Translations under genes and position numbers: made by a program
The notes under the pieces: model-generated
Told to the model about the DNA's origin: nothing
The model's input: only the letters and a program-made list of their open reading frames with translations
Databases searched by the model: none
Virus record (IMG/VR): IMGVR_UViG_3300038441_000600
Location: 1 to 44,045 of that record
Source: a virus
Length of the DNA stretch: 44,045 bases
Direction: 5' to 3' (one strand)
Part shown: positions 2,595-39,800 of the stretch, piece by piece
How the letters are laid out: the number at the start of each line of letters is the position of its first letter
How positions within the stretch are numbered: the first letter of the stretch is position 1

Positions 2595-4084
2595 TTCTTC
2601 CCCCGTGGCTTGACATCGAGATTGGTCGGTCCCATCGTCCAGTCTTCGCTACCGACCATGTTGACCCGCATGCGGAAATCGCGGGCTGTCTCGCGAACAT
2701 CGACGTAGCCGTTTGCCTTGATCGTCTTGGCCGCCGATGTGGTTTCAGGCAGCTGCGGCGACGATTTGATAAACTCGTAGGAGATGTTGTTCACCGGACC
2801 TGTGATTTCGGGGAGCATCTGGTGGATCGTCATCATGTTAACACCCTCCATGATGTTCATGGTGAACGTCTCCGCCCACGGCAACTCTTCAGCGCCGGGA
2901 TAGACGAAGCCAACCTCGTGGCGATAGACTTTGAGGCCATCCGACATGAATGGGTTGGTGTCATTGGAGTACCCGACGCCGCAAGTCCTGCCGACGAGGG
3001 CCATCGTCCAGAACTTTTCCTTGTAGTTGTAAATGGCCGCGCGGTTGTTTTCCATGTGGTCGGCGGATACAAAGAAGAACCATGCCTCCGACTTAGCGGC
3101 GACGTTGATCATAGACGCCTCGAAGCGGCTGTCGTCAATGGCGATCTGACCGTCGATCCAGTCCCAGATTGGGCATGGGACAGGGGAGATGTTCACGCCG
3201 TTGTAAATCCAGAAGCCGTTAACCGCCTCCCAGAACACCCCATCCGGTGTCTCGATGATCGCCGCCGCCGAAAGGGGAGTAGGGCACTCCACAATCTTCT
3301 CAACAGCGTAGATGTAAGGCAGCCCAACATAGGAGATACGGTGGGAGGCGACGTTGGTAAACATGATGAAATTGCTGCCGATGGACTTGTGGGCAACAAT
3401 CGGGGATCGCGGCTCGACGTTGTTCTTGCCGGCCTTGCTTGTGGTGGAAGCGAAATCCCAGTTCGTATCGTTTTCCTGATCGCACCATCCGTACTGCGAG
3501 GCGTCACCATCCATTCCGAACAGGATGATGTGGCGCTCTGGGGTCACAACGAAAGAACGGTTGCCGATCGGGGCGTTCGTAACGGCAGTCAGCAGCGATG
3601 CCGGGAAAGCGGGGTCCCAACGCAGGAGACGACCATCGGGGCTGGTCATCGCGCGAAGCTCGCCGCCCCAGTTGCTGAGAGTGAAGCAAGGGGTGGCTGG
3701 AAGAGCGCGCGAGCGGGACGAGCGGGGCGTTCCGTAGGTGCCGTCGCCGTACAGCAGGTCGCCATACCCGCCCTCGTCAGTGCCTATAGGGGGTTCCAGG
3801 CCCCCGGTCGGCGTGATGTCGGTAAGGACGCCGTCGATGTCGACGTAGCAGTGCTCTTCGCAGAGATAAGCGATATAGGTCTTGCCGTCGAGGCCGTTCC
3901 ACTTGTGCGAAGCGCGGCAGCGCGAGGCGAAAGCAGGGTAGTCGATTTCCTCCCAGCCGCCGATGGGGCGCAGGGTAACACCCTCCCAACGAATCAGGTT
4001 TGTCTCGCGCCAGCTAGCCGTCTTCTTTCGCTTGGAAGCGACGTTGACTACGCCGGGAGGAAAATCGATCGTGATGTCGTTCAT
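2591..4084 (-). CDS. Large tail structural protein
   Basis: This 497-residue protein is beta-rich with many aromatic and Gly turns. It begins MNDITIDFPPGVVNVASKRK and includes WEGVTLRPIGGWE near residue 35. The pattern and length resemble the podovirus tail/DNA-stabilisation proteins (P22 gp10-like and related tube or nozzle proteins) that follow the connector genes. It directly follows the collar-type fibre with a 4-base overlap. Assignment as a tail tube or nozzle component is inferred from architecture and position and not from a diagnostic motif. Confidence 0.6.
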   Translation of the reverse strand: MNDITIDFPPGVVNVASKRKKTASWRETNLIRWEGVTLRPIGGWEEIDYPAFASRCRASHKWNGLDGKTYIAYLCEEHCYVDIDGVLTDITPTGGLEPPIGTDEGGYGDLLYGDGTYGTPRSSRSRALPATPCFTLSNWGGELRAMTSPDGRLLRWDPAFPASLLTAVTNAPIGNRSFVVTPERHIILFGMDGDASQYGWCDQENDTNWDFASTTSKAGKNNVEPRSPIVAHKSIGSNFIMFTNVASHRISYVGLPYIYAVEKIVECPTPLSAAAIIETPDGVFWEAVNGFWIYNGVNISPVPCPIWDWIDGQIAIDDSRFEASMINVAAKSEAWFFFVSADHMENNRAAIYNYKEKFWTMALVGRTCGVGYSNDTNPFMSDGLKVYRHEVGFVYPGAEELPWAETFTMNIMEGVNMMTIHQMLPEITGPVNNISYEFIKSSPQLPETTSAAKTIKANGYVDVRETARDFRMRVNMVGSEDWTMGPTNLDVKPRGKK

Positions 4085-18434: not shown

Positions 18435-18566
18435 GGGTAAATACAGAGAACCCCGCCGAGAGGGTATCGCAGCGGGGTTCTCGGGTAACAGTGCCCAAGG
18501 ACGGTGGAATGGTGAGCTGCCCGCTATCCACTTCGCGTCAGCAGCGCCCTCATCCTTGGGGCTTGT
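18435..18566 (-). ncRNA. Putative small RNA, about 130 nt
   Basis: The promoter at 18573-18602 would start a leftward RNA near 18566. No plausible gene lies ahead before the next promoter; the only small frame, ATGAGGGCG near 18550, stops after nine codons. The RNA would end in an 11-bp hairpin (GAGAACCCCGC at 18446-18456 with GCGGGGTTCTC at 18472-18482) followed by a weak T-rich stretch. Confidence 0.5.
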
Positions 18567-18572
18567 AGGGAT

Positions 18573-18602
18573 ACTATACCACGGGGGACACTGGGCTGTC
18601 AA
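18573..18602 (-). promoter_or_regulatory. Leftward promoter of the putative small RNA
   Basis: On the minus strand TTGACA (18602-18597), an 18-base spacer ending CGTGG, and TATAGT (18578-18573). It overlaps the end of the 75-aa gene. Confidence 0.7.
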
Positions 18603-27857: not shown

Positions 27858-28256
27858 ATGGTCGACGACAACGGCAATGAAAACCTAGGCCGGACGAAGG
27901 TCGAAGTCTCATATGTCAATCAGGAGCAAGATTACGAGCTACTCCTGAGGCTCCCGCCGAATGTGCGGGAGTTTGTCCTCTATGACGCTGGTACGCCGTT
28001 CAACGTGCAGGACATCTTCGACGGGTACAAGATACTTAGCGACGCCATGCGGGAGCGCAGTATTTACTCCTTCTTTGGTGGCGGCAACCCCGAAAGGGTA
28101 AGCGACCGCGAGATTTGGAGTGCTGTCCTTTCGCATCTTAAGAAGGTGTCACGAGAGGACCACATGTTTGTGTACGATGGCACCTATCCGGGTGACATTA
28201 GGCATTACCGCCACTCCCTTTCGACGGCAGTTCCAAAACTTCGCCGCATAAGTTGA
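27858..28256 (+). CDS. Unknown protein, 132 aa
   Basis: ATG 27858 is one base after the previous stop. The product reads MVDDNGNENLGRTKVEVSYV and has REFVLYDAGTPFNVQDIFDG and an Arg/His-rich end (GDIRHYRHSLSTAVPKLRR). It contains several CGAAAGG/CCTTTCG words (28091, 28127, 28217). Its stop lies in the -35 of the primase promoter. Confidence 0.55.
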   Translation: MVDDNGNENLGRTKVEVSYVNQEQDYELLLRLPPNVREFVLYDAGTPFNVQDIFDGYKILSDAMRERSIYSFFGGGNPERVSDREIWSAVLSHLKKVSREDHMFVYDGTYPGDIRHYRHSLSTAVPKLRRIS

Positions 28257-28281
28257 CACGCCTGCCGGGGCGTGGTATAGT
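28253..28281 (+). promoter_or_regulatory. Rightward promoter of the primase-helicase
   Basis: TTGACA (28253-28258), 17-base spacer ending CGTGG, TATAGT (28276-28281). The predicted RNA start is near 28288, exactly at the first arm of the structured leader. Confidence 0.8.
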
Positions 28282-28287
28282 GTATCG

Positions 28288-28366
28288 TCTGTGGTGGACG
28301 AAATCCCGGTGGGGCGAAAGGGCGACGGTCCTCCCACCGGGGAAACCACAGAATTGGACACCACAG
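28288..28366 (+). promoter_or_regulatory. Structured, switch-like leader RNA of the primase-helicase
   Basis: An outer stem TCTGTGGT (28288-28295) with ACCACAGA (28345-28352) encloses a 9-bp stem CCCGGTGGG (28305-28313) with CCCACCGGG (28333-28341). A second partner for the first arm, CACCACAG (28359-28366), can pair with CTGTGGTG (28289-28296) and lies against the ribosome-binding site GGCGGAG before ATG 28380. The two pairings exclude each other, as in riboswitches or protein-controlled leaders. Confidence 0.6.
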
Positions 28367-28379
28367 GCGGAGCAACTCC

Positions 28380-30929
28380 ATGGCATTCGAATCCATCGCT
28401 GGCGGCTTTAAGGTCAGCGCCCAAGACCAGCAGCTGGTCAACGCGCAGCGCGCTATCACCAAGGTCATTAACGACCGGTTCATCCAGGTCGGCGCGGTCT
28501 TCCTCAAGACCAGCAGCAAGAACCCCCACGAGGATGACTGGTACAAGCGCGGGCATCGCGACACCGATCTTCAAGCGTGGATTGACAATCCCGATCTGAA
28601 CTACCACAACGCAGGGTTCAACCTGCAGATGGGCTGGCTCGATATCGACATCGACGCAGAGGACCCCGAGTACAACGAATGCATCCTCGCGGCGCTTAAT
28701 CACCTCAAGATTGACACGCGGTTCAAGTTCGGCCGCCTTTCGGTGGGTGTGGCAAGCCACGTCATGGTTCAGCTGGGGGAGGACGAGGCCACCAACTTCG
28801 ACAAGCTCACCCGCTTCGAGCCCAAGGAATTCCGGATCGAAGGCAAGCGCTACCACGTTCAGCTGCGCGGCTTCTCCACCAATACGAGCGCCGCCAACGT
28901 AGCTAAGTCGGCCAAGCAGACCGTGATGCCGGGTTCCATCTACACCCACAAGACCGAAAGGGACAGGTACGACATCTCTGTCTGGTACGGGCCAGCAGGC
29001 GTTGCGACTGAGGTCAAGAACATCACCTCGACGACGCCCCGGCGCGTCAACTTCAACGAGATCGTCCGCGCCATCTGCTTCGGCACATTCCTGTACTGCC
29101 TCAAGGAAGAGTGGGTCGAGGGCAGCCGCCAGATGACGGCGCAGAAGGTGACCGGCTGGCTCGCGCGCGTCATGAAGGACAGCGCCGCGATGAATAACCA
29201 CGAGGTGGTGTCGTCCGACGTGTTTTGCCCCGTCGACGACGAGGGCATCGCCGAATCGCTGCTGTATTTCATCTGCGACTACATGCACGACGACGAAAAG
29301 CACATGCGGGTGCGCGCTTTCCATGACGCCGTGGCCAAGCTGGAGCGCAACCCCGACGCCAAGGTTCCCGGCTGGCCCGCAATGGAGCAGCTTATCGGCG
29401 GCGCTAAGACGCTGGCGTTGCGTACTGTGTTCATGCCGGGCTCAGACGTGTCGCAGTTGACCAAGATGGCTGAAAGGTACGTGTATGACGAAACTGACAA
29501 CCAGTACATTGACCGCACTCGCTTCTTCACTACTGGCGGGTTCGTCCATGCCGGTGAAGAACTCGAACGGAGACATCGTGGCGATGTCGTCCGAATTGGC
29601 GGGAAACCTAAGCAGGCCTTTTCGGTGTACGAGTCCAGCGACATGCGAAAGCGAGTCGGGTTCAGAGACCTTTATCCAGACCTTAATCCGGGAGGCATTT
29701 ACCGCATCTCAGGACTGGGGGAAGTCCTCTCTGATGATGACGACGGGGACAATACCGCTCTATCGGTATTTAATACGTGGCGAGGATGGCCTGTGGGTGT
29801 TCCGGACAAAGTTGATGAGCGACTACTTTCTGACCTCGTTGGACGTCTCGATACCGTATTGGGATATCTCACCCAGGATAAGGTCGAGCAAATAGACTGG
29901 ATCAAGCGCTGGATGGCGTGGACGTTCCAGCGCCCCGGCGACAAGCAGCAGATCGCTTGGGTGGTAGTGGGCGAGCAGGGCATCGGCAAATCGTGGATTG
30001 GCAACATCTTTATGCGGGCTCTCATGGGCACGCTCTGGGGATCGGCGTCACCGAAAGTGATGGAGGGCGACTTCGTCATTGGGCCGTTCCTCAACAAGAT
30101 GTTCGTGTTCATCGACGAGGCCAAGTTCCACTCCGAGGTGGGCGTCGACGAAATCAAGAAGCTGATCCGTGGCGTGGACGTTCCCGGAGCGGAGAAGTTC
30201 CAGGATGCGCGCAACTATAGACTGTTTGCCCGACTAATGTTTGCGTCCAACCGCATGAACATGAATATCGGTCAAGCCAACGTGCGCGACCGTGCTTTGT
30301 TCTATACCCGCGCGTATGACCGCGACTACAAGCGTATGACCGAGGCCGATTTTCGCACTTGGGCGGAGACGCTCAAGCCATGGTTTCAGGAGTACACCGA
30401 TCTGCTCCAGCAACGAACGGTGCGTGAACACTACATGCACTATTTCCTCAACGTGGTAAAGACCGACAAGTTCGAGGTCGAGAGCATCAAGCATTCCAGC
30501 AGCGCCGACGCGCAGATCGTTATCGGCAACATGTCGTGGTCGCGCCGCATCGCCAAGTACATCATCGAAGATGGGCGCATCCACGAGGACCTCGACATCT
30601 CGTACCCATTCACGGTGCCCGAGCTCAACCGGCGTGTGGTCGACGTGTGCAGGGAGCTAGGCATGTCGAATGTGCAGGGCAGCCACATCTTGGCGGAGTT
30701 CGAGAGCGCTGGTGTCCTTGAGAAGATCGTAGTCGCCGGTCAGAAGAAGCTGCGCTTCACCCACAAGATCGGCTCCCTCACCCAGTTTTTCGGCGTGGCG
30801 ATCGGTGTCGACCTCGAACCCCGCTACGAGTTCACCGAAAAGGACATGGGGCCCAACGACTGCGACGGTTCCACCCGCCCCTCATGGCGTGGGTCCAAGC
30901 TGGGCGTAGTGGCTCAGAGTAGGGTGTAG
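28380..30929 (+). CDS. Primase-helicase (AEP-like N-terminus, SF3-type helicase)
   Basis: This is the largest protein in the window (849 aa). An N-terminal region contains GFNLQMGWLDIDIDAEDPEY, whose DID pattern resembles the metal site of archaeo-eukaryotic-type primases, with SVGVASHVMV following. The C-terminal half is a superfamily 3-like helicase (DUF5906 type): Walker A VVGEQGIGKSWI near residue 531, Walker B KMFVFIDEAKFH near 577, and LMFASNRMNM as the sensor. It would prime and unwind DNA for the phage polymerase. Expression is probably controlled by the leader RNA just upstream. Confidence 0.85.
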   Translation: MAFESIAGGFKVSAQDQQLVNAQRAITKVINDRFIQVGAVFLKTSSKNPHEDDWYKRGHRDTDLQAWIDNPDLNYHNAGFNLQMGWLDIDIDAEDPEYNECILAALNHLKIDTRFKFGRLSVGVASHVMVQLGEDEATNFDKLTRFEPKEFRIEGKRYHVQLRGFSTNTSAANVAKSAKQTVMPGSIYTHKTERDRYDISVWYGPAGVATEVKNITSTTPRRVNFNEIVRAICFGTFLYCLKEEWVEGSRQMTAQKVTGWLARVMKDSAAMNNHEVVSSDVFCPVDDEGIAESLLYFICDYMHDDEKHMRVRAFHDAVAKLERNPDAKVPGWPAMEQLIGGAKTLALRTVFMPGSDVSQLTKMAERYVYDETDNQYIDRTRFFTTGGFVHAGEELERRHRGDVVRIGGKPKQAFSVYESSDMRKRVGFRDLYPDLNPGGIYRISGLGEVLSDDDDGDNTALSVFNTWRGWPVGVPDKVDERLLSDLVGRLDTVLGYLTQDKVEQIDWIKRWMAWTFQRPGDKQQIAWVVVGEQGIGKSWIGNIFMRALMGTLWGSASPKVMEGDFVIGPFLNKMFVFIDEAKFHSEVGVDEIKKLIRGVDVPGAEKFQDARNYRLFARLMFASNRMNMNIGQANVRDRALFYTRAYDRDYKRMTEADFRTWAETLKPWFQEYTDLLQQRTVREHYMHYFLNVVKTDKFEVESIKHSSSADAQIVIGNMSWSRRIAKYIIEDGRIHEDLDISYPFTVPELNRRVVDVCRELGMSNVQGSHILAEFESAGVLEKIVVAGQKKLRFTHKIGSLTQFFGVAIGVDLEPRYEFTEKDMGPNDCDGSTRPSWRGSKLGVVAQSRV

Positions 30930-33950: not shown

Positions 33951-34132
33951 GCGGTGCCAATGTCCTCAAAAGCGTGAAGCTAGCCAACGCCAAGTTGCGC
34001 AGGCTCCGCGATCAGTTTCGCACATACAGGGGCCTCGAAAACAACTACAGTAAGAAAGCTTCAAGGAAGCTCCAGGAGATAGCGATGACCCGCCATCTGA
34101 TGAAAGAGAATGGGATACCAGAAGATGAGTGA
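33938..34132 (+). CDS. Small basic protein, 64 aa
   Basis: ATG 33938 lies inside the end of the preceding gene, and the end overlaps the polymerase start. The product is strongly basic and helical (VKLANAKLRRLRDQFRTYRG). It may bind nucleic acid or the polymerase, but nothing shows this directly. Confidence 0.55.
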   Translation: MAEVGGANVLKSVKLANAKLRRLRDQFRTYRGLENNYSKKASRKLQEIAMTRHLMKENGIPEDE

Positions 34133-35951
34133 CTATCTCGACGCAATTGACCCCGAACTAGCGCTGATGATCGTGCGGGAAAGTAAGGTGATCGCCTATG
34201 ACACCGAAACTTCCGGCCTTGTCCACGGCGTTGCCTTCATCTGCGGGTATGTCATCACCGATCACTCGCACTCCCTTTACATTCCGGTCCGCCACGAGGG
34301 CGGCGGCAACATTCCGTTCGTCGAGGAATTCGAGCAGGAGCTCAACGCGGCGTTTCAAGAGCGCGGGCGTCTCGGCCTTCGCACGGTCGGTCACAACCTT
34401 GGCTTCGATCTGCGCATGTCGGCGTGGCACAACGTCTGGCCCCAAAGCCCCCTCGAAGACACGTTGATCAATGAAGGTCTGATCGACGACCGGACCATCG
34501 GTTACGGCCTCGACGACTGTTGCCGCAGACACCAAGTCACCGCCAAGAAGGGCGACGAGCTCTACCGCGCTATCGCTGAGAGGTTCGGCGGAATCCCCGA
34601 TCGCAAACAGATGGCTAACTTCTGGCGGATGCCGGGGGACCAATTCGAAGTGGTGGACTACGCCACGGGTGACGGCGTGTCGACGTTGGAGTTGTGGTCG
34701 TCACAGAACGTGCTGCTCGACCAAGAACAGCTGAGGGTTCCGTGGCAGCTGGAGTGCGACCTCCTGCCCTACCTCGCCCGCATGCACAGACGCGGAATCC
34801 GAATTGACGCCGACTACGCCGAAAGGGTGGAGGACGACCTCAAGGATCAGATCAAGGAAGCCAGTTCCGTATTTTCGGCGGGTTTCAACGTCCGGTCCCC
34901 CAAGGAAGTCGAGGCGCTGTATCGGGCCAACGGCTACGGCGACGACTCCTTCGATCGCACGGATACCGGCAAGGTTTCCTTCACCGAAAGCTGGCTCGAA
35001 ACTAATGAGATCGGCAGCAGCATCCTCGGCGTTCGCCGTCTGGAAAAGGCGCGCGACAGCTTTATCGCCCCGCTCGCCGTCACCAACAACATCGCTGGGC
35101 GGGTTCACGCCACGCTCAATCAGTCCAAATCCGACGAATACGGCGTTGCTGGTTCCCGCCTCTCCTGCTCGGTCCCCAATCTCCAGGCGTTCCCCAAGCG
35201 CAACAAGCAGGTCGGCAAGGTCGTGCGCCGCCTAGTCATTGCTGATGACGGTATGTTGCTGGAGGAAGGCGATGCGATGCAGCAGGAGCCGCGCTTCTTT
35301 GCCCATTACAGTGAAGACGAGGCGCTGCTTCACGGCTACAACACCGACCCGTCCTTCTCGGTCCACCATCGCGCCAACGACATGATGTTCGACGGGCAGG
35401 AGTACGATAAGGCCAAGCGCATGGCCATGGGCATCCTTTCGATGATGTACCCCAGGGCGCTGGCTGGCCATCTGCGCATCAGCGTCAAGGAAGCCTCGGC
35501 GCTGCGGCAAAAGTTCCTCTACGAGGCGTTCCCCGCGATCGGCCAGTTCCAAAAGGACGTGGTCAGTGTATTCGAGAGCCGGGGTTATGTTCGCTCGATC
35601 CTAGGCCGAAAAGCGAGGCTGGAGACGAGCAAGTGGGCGTACAAGGGCGTGTCGCGCGTGATCCAGAACAGCGGCGGCGACCATATCAAGACGTGCATTC
35701 TGCGCGCCTGCCAGTACGAGGACGCCTACCCCGACTTGGTTCAAATCCTACTGTCCATTCACGACTCCGTTATGTGGCAGCGCGACCCGGCCCACTCCCC
35801 CAAGGAGTTGGTGCGCGTAATGGAGAACGTGCCGCACGAGCCGCAGTTCAACCTCCGCCTGCCCATTCCTTTCGAGGTGGGCTCCGCTCGCAACTGGTCG
35901 GACGCGTCGTACGGCCCCAAGATCAAGGATAAGATGGGATGGCAAATCTAG
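34110..35951 (+). CDS. dpoZ: Family A DNA polymerase with 3'-5' exonuclease (DpoZ-like)
   Basis: The 613-residue product has an intact exonuclease: AYDTETSGL (Exo I, about residues 29-37), TVGHNLGFDLRM (Exo II) and DYATGDGVSTL (Exo III). The polymerase motifs follow: A (EEGDAMQQEPRFFAHYSED), B (EYDKAKRMAMGILSMMYP) and C (LSIHDSVMWQ). Motif A is altered from the usual DYSQIELR. ATG 34125, which overlaps the previous stop, is an alternative start five codons in. Linkage to PurZ, MazZ and DatZ suggests the DpoZ group, which copies 2-aminoadenine DNA; the proof-reading domain may help exclude A. The subgroup call is inferred from context. Confidence 0.85.
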   Translation: MGYQKMSDYLDAIDPELALMIVRESKVIAYDTETSGLVHGVAFICGYVITDHSHSLYIPVRHEGGGNIPFVEEFEQELNAAFQERGRLGLRTVGHNLGFDLRMSAWHNVWPQSPLEDTLINEGLIDDRTIGYGLDDCCRRHQVTAKKGDELYRAIAERFGGIPDRKQMANFWRMPGDQFEVVDYATGDGVSTLELWSSQNVLLDQEQLRVPWQLECDLLPYLARMHRRGIRIDADYAERVEDDLKDQIKEASSVFSAGFNVRSPKEVEALYRANGYGDDSFDRTDTGKVSFTESWLETNEIGSSILGVRRLEKARDSFIAPLAVTNNIAGRVHATLNQSKSDEYGVAGSRLSCSVPNLQAFPKRNKQVGKVVRRLVIADDGMLLEEGDAMQQEPRFFAHYSEDEALLHGYNTDPSFSVHHRANDMMFDGQEYDKAKRMAMGILSMMYPRALAGHLRISVKEASALRQKFLYEAFPAIGQFQKDVVSVFESRGYVRSILGRKARLETSKWAYKGVSRVIQNSGGDHIKTCILRACQYEDAYPDLVQILLSIHDSVMWQRDPAHSPKELVRVMENVPHEPQFNLRLPIPFEVGSARNWSDASYGPKIKDKMGWQI

Positions 35952-36298
35952 GCAACTCGATTCGTCCGAAAGGTAAGTCGTTCCACAGCATCATGCGGGC
36001 TGTTATGGCGGCGATATCCGAGCCAGACACAAGCGTGGTCCACATCAGCGACTCCCTTCACACAGCGCGGCATCACATGCAATACGCGGCCCACATCGTT
36101 CAGCCGCTTGGCGAGTTCGCCAAAGTGCGCCTGACAGACATGTGGATTGTGTTCGACAACGGGTCGCGAGTCAACTTTGTGTCGGGGCGTGACACCTACT
36201 GGGTAAAGGGCAACCGGCACCGCAGATTCTTCATCGACCATTACGCGTTCGAAGAGGGGTTGACACCGGTTGAGCTCCGTGGTAAAGTGGAGGTGTAG
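35939..36298 (+). CDS. Unknown protein, 119 aa
   Basis: Overlaps the polymerase end by 13 bases. The product has an N-terminal helix (SFHSIMRAVMAAISEPDTS), a middle reading FAKVRLTDMWIVFDNGSRVN and a basic segment GNRHRRFFIDHYAF. Its last codons contain a promoter-like sequence. Function unknown. Confidence 0.6.
   Translation: MANLGNSIRPKGKSFHSIMRAVMAAISEPDTSVVHISDSLHTARHHMQYAAHIVQPLGEFAKVRLTDMWIVFDNGSRVNFVSGRDTYWVKGNRHRRFFIDHYAFEEGLTPVELRGKVEV
36260..36288 (+). promoter_or_regulatory. Putative promoter ahead of the Z-nucleotide genes
   Basis: TTGACA (36260-36265), 17-base spacer ending CGTGG, TAAAGT (36283-36288). It lies inside the end of a gene. The predicted start near 36295 leaves no ribosome-binding site for the gene at 36302, so it would serve VRR-NUC, PurZ, MazZ and DatZ downstream. 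Confidence 0.6.
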
Positions 36299-36301
36299 GG
36301 G

Positions 36302-36532
36302 ATGGTAGTCCGGCCTAATGACCCAACCGTGGCGATTGAGGGGAAAATTGAGCACAAAGCACCGAAATCGTACCTTATGGAACTTACGCTCGGTGGCCGC
36401 TATTTCGTGCCGTTTTCTCAGATACTCGGCGGCATGGACGGTATCGGTGACCCGGACGGCCACGGCAATTTCCAAATCGAAGTCTCGCAGTGGTGGTGGG
36501 ACAGGAAAACGGAGGTAGAGGATACGCGATGA
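36302..36532 (+). CDS. Unknown protein, 76 aa
   Basis: GGAGG lies 7 bases before ATG 36302. The beta-rich product (VAIEGKIEHKAPKSYLMELT) ends with a Trp cluster (SQWWWDRKTE). It overlaps the nuclease gene as ATGA. Not recognised. Confidence 0.55.
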   Translation: MVVRPNDPTVAIEGKIEHKAPKSYLMELTLGGRYFVPFSQILGGMDGIGDPDGHGNFQIEVSQWWWDRKTEVEDTR

Positions 36533-36912
36533 AGCCGGAAGCGAAAGCTAAGAACGCGATTGTCGACGCCTTCCAGGAGGGTGGGCATTATGCGCGCCGC
36601 TTCGAGGATCAGTTCTATGTCGGTTTCCCCGATATGATACTGATACCTCGCGGCTATCCGGCTTTCTTCACCGAGGCTAAGATTGTCGACGGGCTGCAAT
36701 TCAAGCCCCGACTTCGGCAATGGGTTGAGCTTGACCGGCTGTCCCTTTCGCCGAAGCACGTGATTCCCACAATGTTGGGGGTAAAGGCGGGTGTCCACTA
36801 CCTGCACAAGTTCGCCAAAATCGTGCACATTGTCGACTGCGTAAAGCAGCGGGATGGCGAACACATAGTGGATTTGTTCAAGCGATACTACCACGAAAGG
36901 ATGGAATTATGA
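36529..36912 (+). CDS. VRR-NUC family nuclease, 127 aa
   Basis: This small PD-(D/E)XK enzyme has an N-terminal helix (KAKNAIVDAFQEGGHYARRF), then the active-site motif GFPDMILI followed by FFTEAK, and a C-terminal basic helix. Phage VRR-NUC proteins are structure-specific nucleases often found next to SNF2-like helicases and polymerases, as here. Overlaps on both sides (ATGA) tie it to the Z-gene unit. Confidence 0.85.
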   Translation: MKPEAKAKNAIVDAFQEGGHYARRFEDQFYVGFPDMILIPRGYPAFFTEAKIVDGLQFKPRLRQWVELDRLSLSPKHVIPTMLGVKAGVHYLHKFAKIVHIVDCVKQRDGEHIVDLFKRYYHERMEL

Positions 36913-37307
36913 GTGACAACAAACGCGTTGCCGGTGACCTCATCACCCAAGCGGCCAAGACAGTCCTGAAAGACCGCCCCGGCGTCCACGGGTCGGTTGA
37001 AAACAGCTTCCAGATGATCGCCGACCTCTGGAACGTGCGTATCGCCCACAAGCGCGCCATTCACGGCAGCGATGCTCTGCTCAACCCGGCTGACGTGGCG
37101 CAGTTCATGGCCGACCTCAAGTCGTGCCGCACCTCTTACGGCGACCCGATGAACGCTGACAACTTCGTCGACGGCATCGGCTACCTCGCCTTGGCGGGCA
37201 TGCTCACCTTGCCCGACCCAGACGCTTCCAAATCGGTGGGGGACGAGCTCGAAAAAGAGTTCCCGCCAATAAGCGGCAAGACCGTTCACACCAACATCAA
37301 CGCGTAA
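36909..37307 (+). CDS. DUF6378-like phage protein, 132 aa
   Basis: The product has a helical core with WNVRIAHKRAIHGSDALLNP, SCRTSYGDPMNADNFVDGIG and YLALAG, the pattern of small phage proteins annotated DUF6378. It begins in an overlap with the nuclease gene. An E/K-rich C-terminus follows. The function of the family is not known to me; conserved linkage with nucleotide metabolism genes is suggestive. Confidence 0.65.
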   Translation: MSDNKRVAGDLITQAAKTVLKDRPGVHGSVENSFQMIADLWNVRIAHKRAIHGSDALLNPADVAQFMADLKSCRTSYGDPMNADNFVDGIGYLALAGMLTLPDPDASKSVGDELEKEFPPISGKTVHTNINA

Positions 37308-37318
37308 GGACACGACAA

Positions 37319-38383
37319 ATGCACAGCGTCCCCTTGTTCGAAGCGACCGGAGCTCACGTTCTGGTCGATGGTCAATACGGCTCCACGGGCAAGGGGGTGC
37401 TGGCCGCTTGGCTGGCACTCAGGGCCATGGAGCGGGGTATCGTTTTCGACACTGTCGTCAGCAATGCCGGTCCGAACTCTGGTCACACGTTTTACCACGG
37501 CAGCGAAAAGCACGTCCTGAAACAGCTGCCCACGTTCGCCGTAGCGTCCTACCTTCTCCACAACGAGGACTTCGCTCCGGACGTCGTCCTTTCGGCGGGC
37601 GCGATCATCGACCCTATTCAGCTGGGCGTCGAGGCCGAAAAGTACCCCGGCATCACGATCCATGTTCACCCCAATGCGGCGGTCATCACCGCCGAGGACC
37701 GGGCGGCGGAGCATTCCGGCACCATAGCCGCCGTGGCTGGTACCCGAAGTGGCACTGGCGCGGCGCTAGCCCGGAAGGTGCAGCGGGACCCCAAGGCGGT
37801 GGTAGCGGGTGCGAGGCTGCCGGTCCAGATGACCTCGCAGCCCAACATCAAGGTCGCCGCCGTTGAGCACGACGCCTACAACGATCGGGTGTTCGTCGAG
37901 GTGAGCCAGGGTTTTTCGTTGGGCATTAACCAGCCGTTCTATCCGAAGGTCACGAGCAGGGAGTGCACCGTTGCACAAGCCATCGCTGATGCTGGTATTC
38001 CGCCGAGGCACGTCACCAAGACTTACCTATCGCTTCGTACTTTTCCGATACGCGTCGGCAACGTGGATGGGCACGACAGCGGGGACTGGTACCCCGATCA
38101 GGTTGAAACTGACTGGGTCGCGCTCGGTGTCGAACCAGAACTCACCACCGTCACCCAGAGGGTGAGGCGTGTCGCAACATGGTCCGAGGAACAATTCCTC
38201 GATGCCTGCCGTGCCAATGACCCGGACATTGTGTTCCTGAACTTCCTCAACTATATTGATGACGTGGAAGTTCGCATGCGGTTCATCGACGGCGTTGCCG
38301 ATCTTCGGGACAACCTGCCCCGCTGGTACGATATCTACGGCAGCACCGGCCCCAAGTCGGAGGACGTAAGCTACTATGGTTAA
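37319..38383 (+). CDS. purZ: PurZ: phage adenylosuccinate synthetase homologue for 2-aminoadenine synthesis
   Basis: The 354-residue product is a shortened PurA-type enzyme. The nucleotide-binding loop reads DGQYGSTGKG (residues 17-26), where host PurA has GDEGKGK. The catalytic Asp of PurA is replaced by Ser22, the hallmark of PurZ, which accepts dGMP in place of IMP. VSNAGPNSGHTFYHG and VLKQLP correspond to the NAGHT region, and GTRSGTGAALARKVQRD to the GTTxRGIGP loop. It would join dGMP and aspartate to make the precursor of dZMP. RBS AAGGACACGACAA. The gene overlaps the MazG-like gene by 8 bases. Confidence 0.93.
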   Translation: MHSVPLFEATGAHVLVDGQYGSTGKGVLAAWLALRAMERGIVFDTVVSNAGPNSGHTFYHGSEKHVLKQLPTFAVASYLLHNEDFAPDVVLSAGAIIDPIQLGVEAEKYPGITIHVHPNAAVITAEDRAAEHSGTIAAVAGTRSGTGAALARKVQRDPKAVVAGARLPVQMTSQPNIKVAAVEHDAYNDRVFVEVSQGFSLGINQPFYPKVTSRECTVAQAIADAGIPPRHVTKTYLSLRTFPIRVGNVDGHDSGDWYPDQVETDWVALGVEPELTTVTQRVRRVATWSEEQFLDACRANDPDIVFLNFLNYIDDVEVRMRFIDGVADLRDNLPRWYDIYGSTGPKSEDVSYYG

Positions 38384-38840
38384 CCACACTTACGACGATG
38401 ACTACGAGGAAGAAATAGTGCGCAACGAAAAGGAACACTCTACGCACCCGGTCCGCCCCTTGGTGCCCCGCCTATCCAGAGAAGACATGGAACAAATCGC
38501 TAGCAGGGTAGAGAAGGCGGCGGGCGTAGATTTCCACGTGAATCTTCAATCTCCGCCCAATCAGCCCCTGACGATCGAAATCCCAAGCGAGGTCCTCCAG
38601 TATCGCGAAGATATCCGCCGCTTCGTCGACGCGATGCTCTACAAATTGAAGGTCCACCACCGAAAAGGCAGGTGGGAGGGTAAGACCATCGACGAATATC
38701 TGCCGCTATTGGAGGGGGAGGTGGCCGAGCTACGGGAAGCCTGTGGCGGCGGCAACTTGATAGAGATACTCATGGAGGCCGCTGACACCGCCAACATGGC
38801 TATGATCATATCAGCAATAGCGGTGGAGCGAGGGAAATGA
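38376..38840 (+). CDS. mazZ: MazZ: MazG-like dGTP pyrophosphohydrolase
   Basis: The 154-residue product has a MazG-type helical domain from about residue 82: MLYKLKVHHRKGRWEGKTID, then the metal-binding pattern EVAE with 15 residues to EAAD. In Z-phages this enzyme turns dGTP (and dATP) into the monophosphate, supplying dGMP to PurZ. An N-terminal extension of about 80 residues (acidic, then SREDMEQIASRVEKAAG) is not part of the MazG fold and looks like a separate small domain. Confidence 0.82.
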   Translation: MVNHTYDDDYEEEIVRNEKEHSTHPVRPLVPRLSREDMEQIASRVEKAAGVDFHVNLQSPPNQPLTIEIPSEVLQYREDIRRFVDAMLYKLKVHHRKGRWEGKTIDEYLPLLEGEVAELREACGGGNLIEILMEAADTANMAMIISAIAVERGK

Positions 38841-39046
38841 GTACGCCTTTCATGGGTACTGTAGGTTTCGACACCGGAATCAAGGACAAGCACGGGAACC
38901 CCATCCACATCGGGGACGAGCTACGTTTCGACGAAAGGGAGTGGGGCGGACCCTGCATATTCACGGTGGGGTTCGTCGACGGAGAGTTGACGGGCTGCGG
39001 CTCGATCGGTGACTGGTCGGAATGGTGCGAGGTGGTGCAGAAATGA
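38837..39046 (+). CDS. Unknown protein, 69 aa
   Basis: ATGA overlap with MazZ. The beta-rich product (GIKDKHGNPIHIGDELRFDE, then WGGPCIFTVGFVDG and [10 protein letters not shown]) resembles small YopX-like or SH3-like phage proteins. It overlaps the next gene by 4 bases. Function unknown. Confidence 0.6.
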   Translation: MSTPFMGTVGFDTGIKDKHGNPIHIGDELRFDEREWGGPCIFTVGFVDGELTGCGSIGDWSEWCEVVQK

Positions 39047-39249
39047 CCAGTCGCCCTACACACGACGCGGTGCAGATCGTCAAGGCCGTCCTTTGGGAAG
39101 AAGCCAAAGGCAAGCTCCGAGCCCTCGTTGCCGCCGAGGGGTCAAGATACAGCACTCCTGAAAAGGGCGAGCCCTTCAAGCACGAGGTAATCTCGGAGGA
39201 AATCGAGGCGTTCATCAAGGCTTTTGAGGGCGAGGAGTACAATCTGTGA
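39043..39249 (+). CDS. Unknown protein, 68 aa
   Basis: ATGA overlap at 39043 and another with DatZ at its end. The product is helical and charged ([20 protein letters not shown]), ending [15 protein letters not shown]. Its tight linkage between MazZ and DatZ suggests co-regulation, but no function is seen. Confidence 0.6.
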
Positions 39250-39800
39250 CCAGTCGCAACACAATTTTCAACGAGTTGGATCACCGCCTTTCGGTCGTTA
39301 AGCGTTGGGGCATCCTCCACACAATCCAGACGCAATCGGTGGCGGAGCATTGCTTCAACGTTCAGCGCATCGCCATGCGGATTGCGCGAGAATGGTTCGG
39401 GATACAGAACCCCTCCGTTATGCTCCAGATTGCCGAAAGGGCGCACCACCACGACGATCTGGAATCGGTGATGGGCGACCCGCCCACGATGATCAAGCCG
39501 TACCTCGACGAGGAAGGCATGGCGAGGGATCACGCCGATCTTGTGCCGATACGCACGGTCAATAACGAAGTGAAGCGAATCGTCAAGCTGGCCGACATGC
39601 TTGAGGCGTTCCACTTCATCTGCATCGAGCGGTTGCTCGGCAACAGGTTTGTCGAGAACCACTACAAGAGCTACTGGAACGAAATCGGTGACTACGTGAT
39701 CACGGCGTTCCCGGATTGTAACATATGGGGCGACGTGTCAGGTGTCATGGAGAACATGGCGAACGACATCTCCGAACGCCACAGCAAGCGGGGCCGCTGA
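39246..39800 (+). CDS. datZ: DatZ: HD-domain dATP triphosphohydrolase
   Basis: The 184-residue product is a YfbR-like HD phosphohydrolase. Its metal residues lie in [17 protein letters not shown] (His), [15 protein letters not shown] (His-Asp) and [12 protein letters not shown] (last Asp). In Z-genome phages DatZ strips the triphosphate from dATP, which removes A from the pool and makes substitution by Z almost complete. It sits in the same overlapping gene string as PurZ and MazZ. Confidence 0.88.

Follow-up and report, generated by a model that had tools for sequence, protein, structure and literature searches.

In phage T4, the mRNA of the replication enzyme encoded by gene 43 carries a leader hairpin with a four-base loop, which is bound by gp43 and controls the ribosome-binding site (RBS) (PMC3014915). 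The leader of T4 gene 32 contains a pseudoknot, and according to a 2010 review viruses may offer no other example of a pseudoknot in translational autoregulation (PMC3014915). In preQ1 riboswitches of classes II and III, an anti-SD segment pairs with the Shine-Dalgarno sequence (SD) as a pseudoknot helix, and in class III a hairpin loop docks on the helix (PMC11625349). In phage P4, one complementary segment, the CI RNA, has two target copies, seqA and seqC, in the leader 5' of the replication genes (PMC4825925).

Herein, we describe the leader of a primase gene in the 44-kb virus record IMGVR_UViG_3300038441_000600; the whole stretch of DNA analysed, 44,045 nucleotides, is referred to as the window. 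In this leader, one 5' segment (the key) can pair with either of two downstream sites (K1 and K2), which lie beyond a bulged hairpin (H2). Since dozens of related phages retain this two-way design through matched mutations, the leader is very probably a genuine and so far undescribed switch that turns the start of phage DNA replication on or off. Like the T4 gene 43 operator, it precedes the gene of a replication enzyme, has a hairpin with a four-base loop and would act at the RBS; the T4 operator, however, is a single gp43-bound hairpin, whereas the present leader combines two exclusive long-range pairings with a bulged hairpin for which protein binding is a proposal. As in T4 gene 32, a pseudoknot would form in the leader of a phage replication protein, but the T4 pseudoknot nucleates cooperative gp32 binding, while here a loop would exchange between two partners. 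The anti-SD loop resembles that of the preQ1 classes, from which the leader differs in the second, competing partner of the loop, in having no Rfam match and apparently in lacking a conserved metabolite pocket. Unlike P4 CI, a separate processed RNA that acts on transcription termination, the leader has no terminator that we could find, and its second target is the RBS. It would work like known translational switches and is a member of none of the families compared. At the gathering level, Rfam gave no match for the window and six relatives, and at a relaxed E-value the leader gave chance-level matches only. No prior description of the primase leader was found in the open-access literature, although an earlier account in a subscription journal is possible.

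The features of the locus, all on the + strand, are as follows:
28253 to 28281, +, sigma-70 promoter TTGACA-17-TATAGT with an extended -10 (TGgTATAGT), an 11/12 consensus match
28285 to 28301, +, 5' hairpin H1, UCGUC-(UGUGGUG)-GACGA, with the key in its loop; stem -8.9 versus -2.8 kcal/mol shuffled
28288 to 28296, +, the key (arm 1), UCUGUGGUG, which pairs with K1 or K2
28305 to 28341, +, bulged hairpin H2, supported by covariation and a covariance model
28305 to 28313 with 28333 to 28341, +, main stem of H2, 9 bp, perfect
28314 to 28318, +, 5' bulge of H2, GCGAA
28319 to 28323 with 28328 to 28332, +, upper stem of H2, AGGGC/GUCCU
28324 to 28327, +, tetraloop of H2, GACG
28345 to 28352, +, K1, the proximal partner, ACCACAGA; key:K1 pairing leaves K2 free of the key (putative ON state)
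28359 to 28367, +, K2, the distal partner, CACCACAGG, directly 5' of the SD; key:K2 pairing is the putative OFF state
28369 to 28372, +, SD GGAG, 7 nt 5' of the AUG, by direct reading
28380 to 30929, +, primase-polymerase/helicase-like gene, 849 aa (PHROG DNA primase; Pfam DUF5906)

The usual promoter spacing places the transcription start at about 28287-28289 and leaves a leader of about 92 nt before the primase gene. An equivalent promoter lies at the same place in nearly all relatives, and most of them have a leader of roughly 80-160 nt. The homologue in Ochrobactrum phage vB_OspP_OH (62% protein identity) is annotated as a DNA primase-polymerase. Elsewhere in these genomes, where many genes have a promoter of their own, leaders are mostly 25-50 nt long; the primase leader is the long, structured exception.

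Several observations concern the promoters themselves. By a strict scan, about 15 sigma-70 promoters of the window each serve a single gene and combine TTGAC with an extended -10 (TGnTA...); relatives, too, have many such promoters. The spacer between the -35 and -10 boxes at 28253-28281, like that of relatives, holds an inverted repeat of the ACAGCC...GGCTGT type, which co-varies mildly between phages (104/175 matched versus 84 with halves swapped) and may be the operator of a repressor. On the - strand of the window, at 18440-18602, a strong promoter (TTGACA-18-TATAGT) is followed by a non-coding, highly structured transcript of about 140 nt (-59.8 kcal/mol), with a GAGAACCCCGC...GCGGGGTTCTC hairpin at its 3' end. 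Structured transcripts without open reading frames also follow promoters in the OH phage (40883, -) and in record G006 (29887, -); a sequence search for relatives of the window's transcript found no similarity, including to these two.

A first-pass annotation had read the leader as a first arm with two exclusive partners, a 9-bp perfect stem between the arms and a second partner touching the RBS. All of these elements are present. The first arm lies one base further to the right than it had been placed (CTGTGGTG occupies 28289-28296; TCTGTGGTG begins at 28288), and the stem is formed by CCCGGTGGG (28305-28313) with CCCACCGGG (28333-28341). K2, where CACCACAG lies at 28359-28366, abuts the SD and does not contain it; in most relatives the SD itself is inside K2. 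What that reading missed were hairpin H1 and the conserved bulge and tetraloop of H2.

The leader RNA (28288-28379) folds with a z of -4.4, and 0/200 shuffles folded as well. The double-partner value of the window was reached by 0/5000 shuffles of the 5' segment and by 2/6000 sites of matching geometry picked at random from this genome and those of relatives, and sites complementary to the key were no commoner elsewhere in the window than expected by chance. Nascent RNA up to 28352 folds as key:K1, while the full leader folds as key:K2; thus, the two pairings do compete.

To follow the design across phages, viral contigs with a related primase were collected in overlapping sets of 24, then 54, then 61 loci. 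From these, 38 non-redundant leaders of the same primase gene were recovered, down to about 45% protein identity, and L001, which is the same virus, stands for the window in all counts. In the phage collection searched, vB_OspP_OH was the one relative to turn up that has been cultured. The double-pairing rule, namely a 5' segment able to form helices with two downstream sites that do not overlap, was evaluated per non-redundant leader. It was set on the first 30 leaders and then applied to 8 more (L024 and 7 leaders fetched after the rule was fixed), whose 5' and 3' segments were cut by hand around H2. All energies are those of nearest-neighbour models without pseudoknots.

The first-pass annotation had staked its reading against the outcome that neither pairing is conserved in relatives. 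The result strongly favours a switch-like leader: both pairings were kept in 38/38 leaders, with compensatory changes between key families, and in each leader one segment has two mutually exclusive partners, one of which involves the SD region. In the first set (30/30), the weaker helix had a mean energy of -13.3 kcal/mol, compared with -8.9 when keys were swapped between phages and -7.6 for shuffled keys. In the later set, the double pairing was found in 8/8, including all 7 leaders fetched after the rule was fixed, and four of the eight beat all 37 non-cognate keys. A weaker-helix energy of -12 was reached by 32 of the 38 leaders, versus 0.9% of random genomic sites. The positions of the partners are also regular: K1 lies 0-15 nt 3' of the central hairpin, and K2 ends 2-12 nt before the AUG over the 38 leaders. 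In the first 30 the distance is 3-19 nt, L028 being the sole case above 12; there, visual inspection places the SD in a later helix, CUCCUA with UAGGGG.

The key families are unrelated in sequence (UGUGGUG, CCCCCUG, GUGAGAG, UCCUUGG, GCUCCGUGG and UCCUCG), and the pairing is kept throughout. For keys other than C-runs, cognate pairs usually beat all but the closest relatives; the cognate energy and the mean non-cognate energy were -16.4 and -7.2 for the window, and -13.3 and -3.2 for L055. The keys of the C-run group are plain C-runs, so that their matching to K1 and K2 is partly a matter of low complexity; the controls were less extreme there, and the group adds less. A near relative of the window, L143 (69% primase identity), has a compensated insertion, with one base added in the key and one in K2 (GUGGUUG / CAACCAC). 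Because the leaders are related by descent, their counts are not independent events, and most of the evidential weight is carried by the unrelated key families and the out-of-sample set.

The central hairpin H2 is a structured, operator-like element directly 5' of the primase RBS. The same plan was found in 29 of the first 31 leaders: a main stem, a 5' bulge of 4-6 nt, a five-position upper stem and a tetraloop that reads GACG or GGCC, with exactly five bases on the 3' side (29/31). The first base of the bulge is a purine in 33/34 leaders and the last base is A in 30/34; the bulge and the GACG/GGCC loop are the only strongly conserved unpaired bases. Since MAFFT misplaced the bulge gaps, the pair counts were taken from a table with correct gaps and from a subset free of gaps (A4). 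Pairing was kept in 382 of 406 pair cells, versus 268 expected and 290 in the best of 1000 shuffles. In the gap-free subset, covariation was 0.79, versus 0.22 when shuffled and at most 0.16 when slid, and 10/12 pairs had changes on both sides. A covariance model, R1, matched the window at 28307-28339 with 38.1 bits, the window sequence having been in the model's seed, and across the records searched it placed H2 once per genome, before the primase only. A corrected DNA pattern for the core hairpin gave 22 matches, of which those before the primase are real and the others that were checked look like chance; a scan of bacterial genomes gave one distant match only. The H2 motif is absent from L024 and L027 and altered in L149 and L196; all four keep the double pairing.

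The 5' hairpin H1 holds the key in its loop. Its stem sequence varies and remains paired (UCGUC/GACGA in the window, GCUCU/GGAGU in OH, UGCAC/GUGCA in the C-run group, GCUCU/GGAGC in L056). Over 30 leaders, the stem energy averaged -8.5, versus -5.1 shuffled, and H1 was clear in about 20/30 (about two thirds). In the window, a transcription start at 28287-28288 would leave 2-3 of the 5 pairs in the RNA. With the key in the loop of H1, coexistence of this hairpin with the key pairings would make each state a pseudoknot; we infer such alternative pseudoknots around H2 in many relatives.

Taken from sequence comparison, the leader is probably a cis-acting bistable translational switch that controls the synthesis of the replication primase and that would probably be gated by a factor reading H2. 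With the key on K1, the RBS would be free (ON), and with the key on K2 it would be closed or crowded (OFF). Because K1 is transcribed first, a new mRNA would start in the ON state and could then exchange to K2. We computed both states in 30 leaders by enforcing either key:K1 (state A) or key:K2 (state B). The states are nearly isoenergetic: B was favoured in 12 leaders and A in 13, with a median difference of 0.05 kcal/mol. The SD region was less open in B in nearly all leaders, with hardly any difference in the window; there, the SD region is about equally open in both states (RNAfold), partly from a small local GGAG/CTCC hairpin, and blockage in the window would therefore be steric.

These energies bear on whether the leader could act as a kinetic timer without any ligand, in which the nascent key:K1 form is translated and then refolds to key:K2, giving a short pulse of primase per transcript. 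K1 is always 5' of K2, and the window's nascent and full RNAs fold as A and B, as such a timer would have it. It needs B to be the stabler state everywhere, yet A is favoured in 13/30, and it leaves the conserved bulge and tetraloop of H2 without a reason; we consider it unlikely. In the switch that we favour, a factor acting in trans, probably a protein, would most likely dock on H2 and shift the balance between the two pairings.

The distribution of the switch bears on what such a factor may be. On a midpoint-rooted primase tree, both sides of the root include phages with the switch. It is absent from L002, from L019 (through a partial deletion) and from L032, L033, L036 and L037, which probably amounts to at least three losses; L173 and L182, which are not on the tree, add two more short leaders. 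The switch is dispensable, having been lost repeatedly from genomes that retain the primase. In L019, the deletion (2928-3001) removed H1 and the 5' half of H2 and left K1-like and K2-like G-runs, a natural scar of switch loss. In a comparison of gene content across 31 records, of which 22 have the switch, no family tracks its presence or absence. A MazG-like gene, considered as a regulator, at first seemed a perfect marker; it is absent from the switch-bearing record G019 and present in the switchless G025 and G026, and was rejected on that ground. The effector could then be a phage protein present throughout, most simply the primase, or a factor of the host, or there may be none.

The window also carries a Z (2-aminoadenine) gene set at 34110-39800 (+):
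34110 to 35951, +, family A DNA polymerase (polA)
37319 to 38383, +, PurZ-like gene, which matches the solved PurZ 7odx
38376 to 38840, +, MazG-like gene
39246 to 39800, +, DatZ-like dATP triphosphohydrolase

G019, the contig of L055 (L111-L113), has primase, polA, helicase and the leader switch; purZ, MazG and DatZ genes were looked for in it and none was detectable, so that G019 is apparently a non-Z member of the group and sensing of the Z nucleotide is not required. A riboswitch responding to a small molecule, namely a nucleotide such as dZTP, dGTP or dGMP, would suit a phage with the Z gene set, and metabolite switches that use an anti-SD/SD pseudoknot do exist in the preQ1 classes (PMC11625349). 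It is nevertheless very unlikely here: G019 has the switch without these genes, the switchless records include the purZ carriers G007, G009 and G010 besides the MazG carriers G025 and G026, the pairing segments vary freely with few conserved unpaired bases outside H2, unlike a typical metabolite pocket, and no Rfam riboswitch matches. The first-pass annotation had proposed a riboswitch or a protein-controlled leader that might link replication to nucleotide state (dATP, dGTP, dZTP or dGMP). A switch-like leader of that general type is what the 38 conserved double pairings point to, while the nucleotide link is not supported.

Control by an antisense RNA of the P4 CI or P1 C4 type, with H1-H2 processed out and acting in trans on K1 and K2, is more improbable still. 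As with P4 CI RNA and its seqA and seqC, a single loop could pair with two sites in its own transcript, 5' of phage replication functions (PMC4825925). However, neither the leader nor the sequence after it yielded an intrinsic terminator, the lack of an Rfam match at the gathering level means that no curated family of that kind is present, pairing in cis is sufficient, and vB_OspP_OH is described as virulent (PMC7139368), so that lysogenic immunity is unexpected. Least plausible is a DNA-level element, a replication origin or primase-loading hairpin lying in the leader by accident: H2 adjoins the primase gene and its pairs are mostly Watson-Crick (G-U only 3%), yet it always lies between the promoter and SD of the same gene in the same orientation, nearly all leaders carry the bulge on the 5' side of the RNA, and the second partner always ends shortly before the AUG.

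Returning to the translational switch, the most economical candidate for the factor would be the primase-polymerase itself, through autogenous feedback. Within this reading, another phage or host factor is a fair contender that falls short of being probable, and primase autoregulation is slightly more doubtful. The effect on translation, the pseudoknots and any binding to H2 are what we infer from the alignments and computed folds. Tentatively, the leader may represent a new class of phage regulatory RNA with exchanging pseudoknots, in which one hairpin loop would choose between a decoy (K1) and the RBS (K2), a factor would read the bulged GACG/GGCC hairpin, and a replication protein would feed back on its own synthesis.

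With 38 leaders, several unrelated key sequences and repeated natural deletions, the switch is directly testable with small reporters. If the reading is true, the H2 hairpin would be a ready bait for a phage or host RNA-binding factor, and a dedicated RNA switch would guard the primase of a widespread, hardly studied phage group, many members of which carry the Z gene set.
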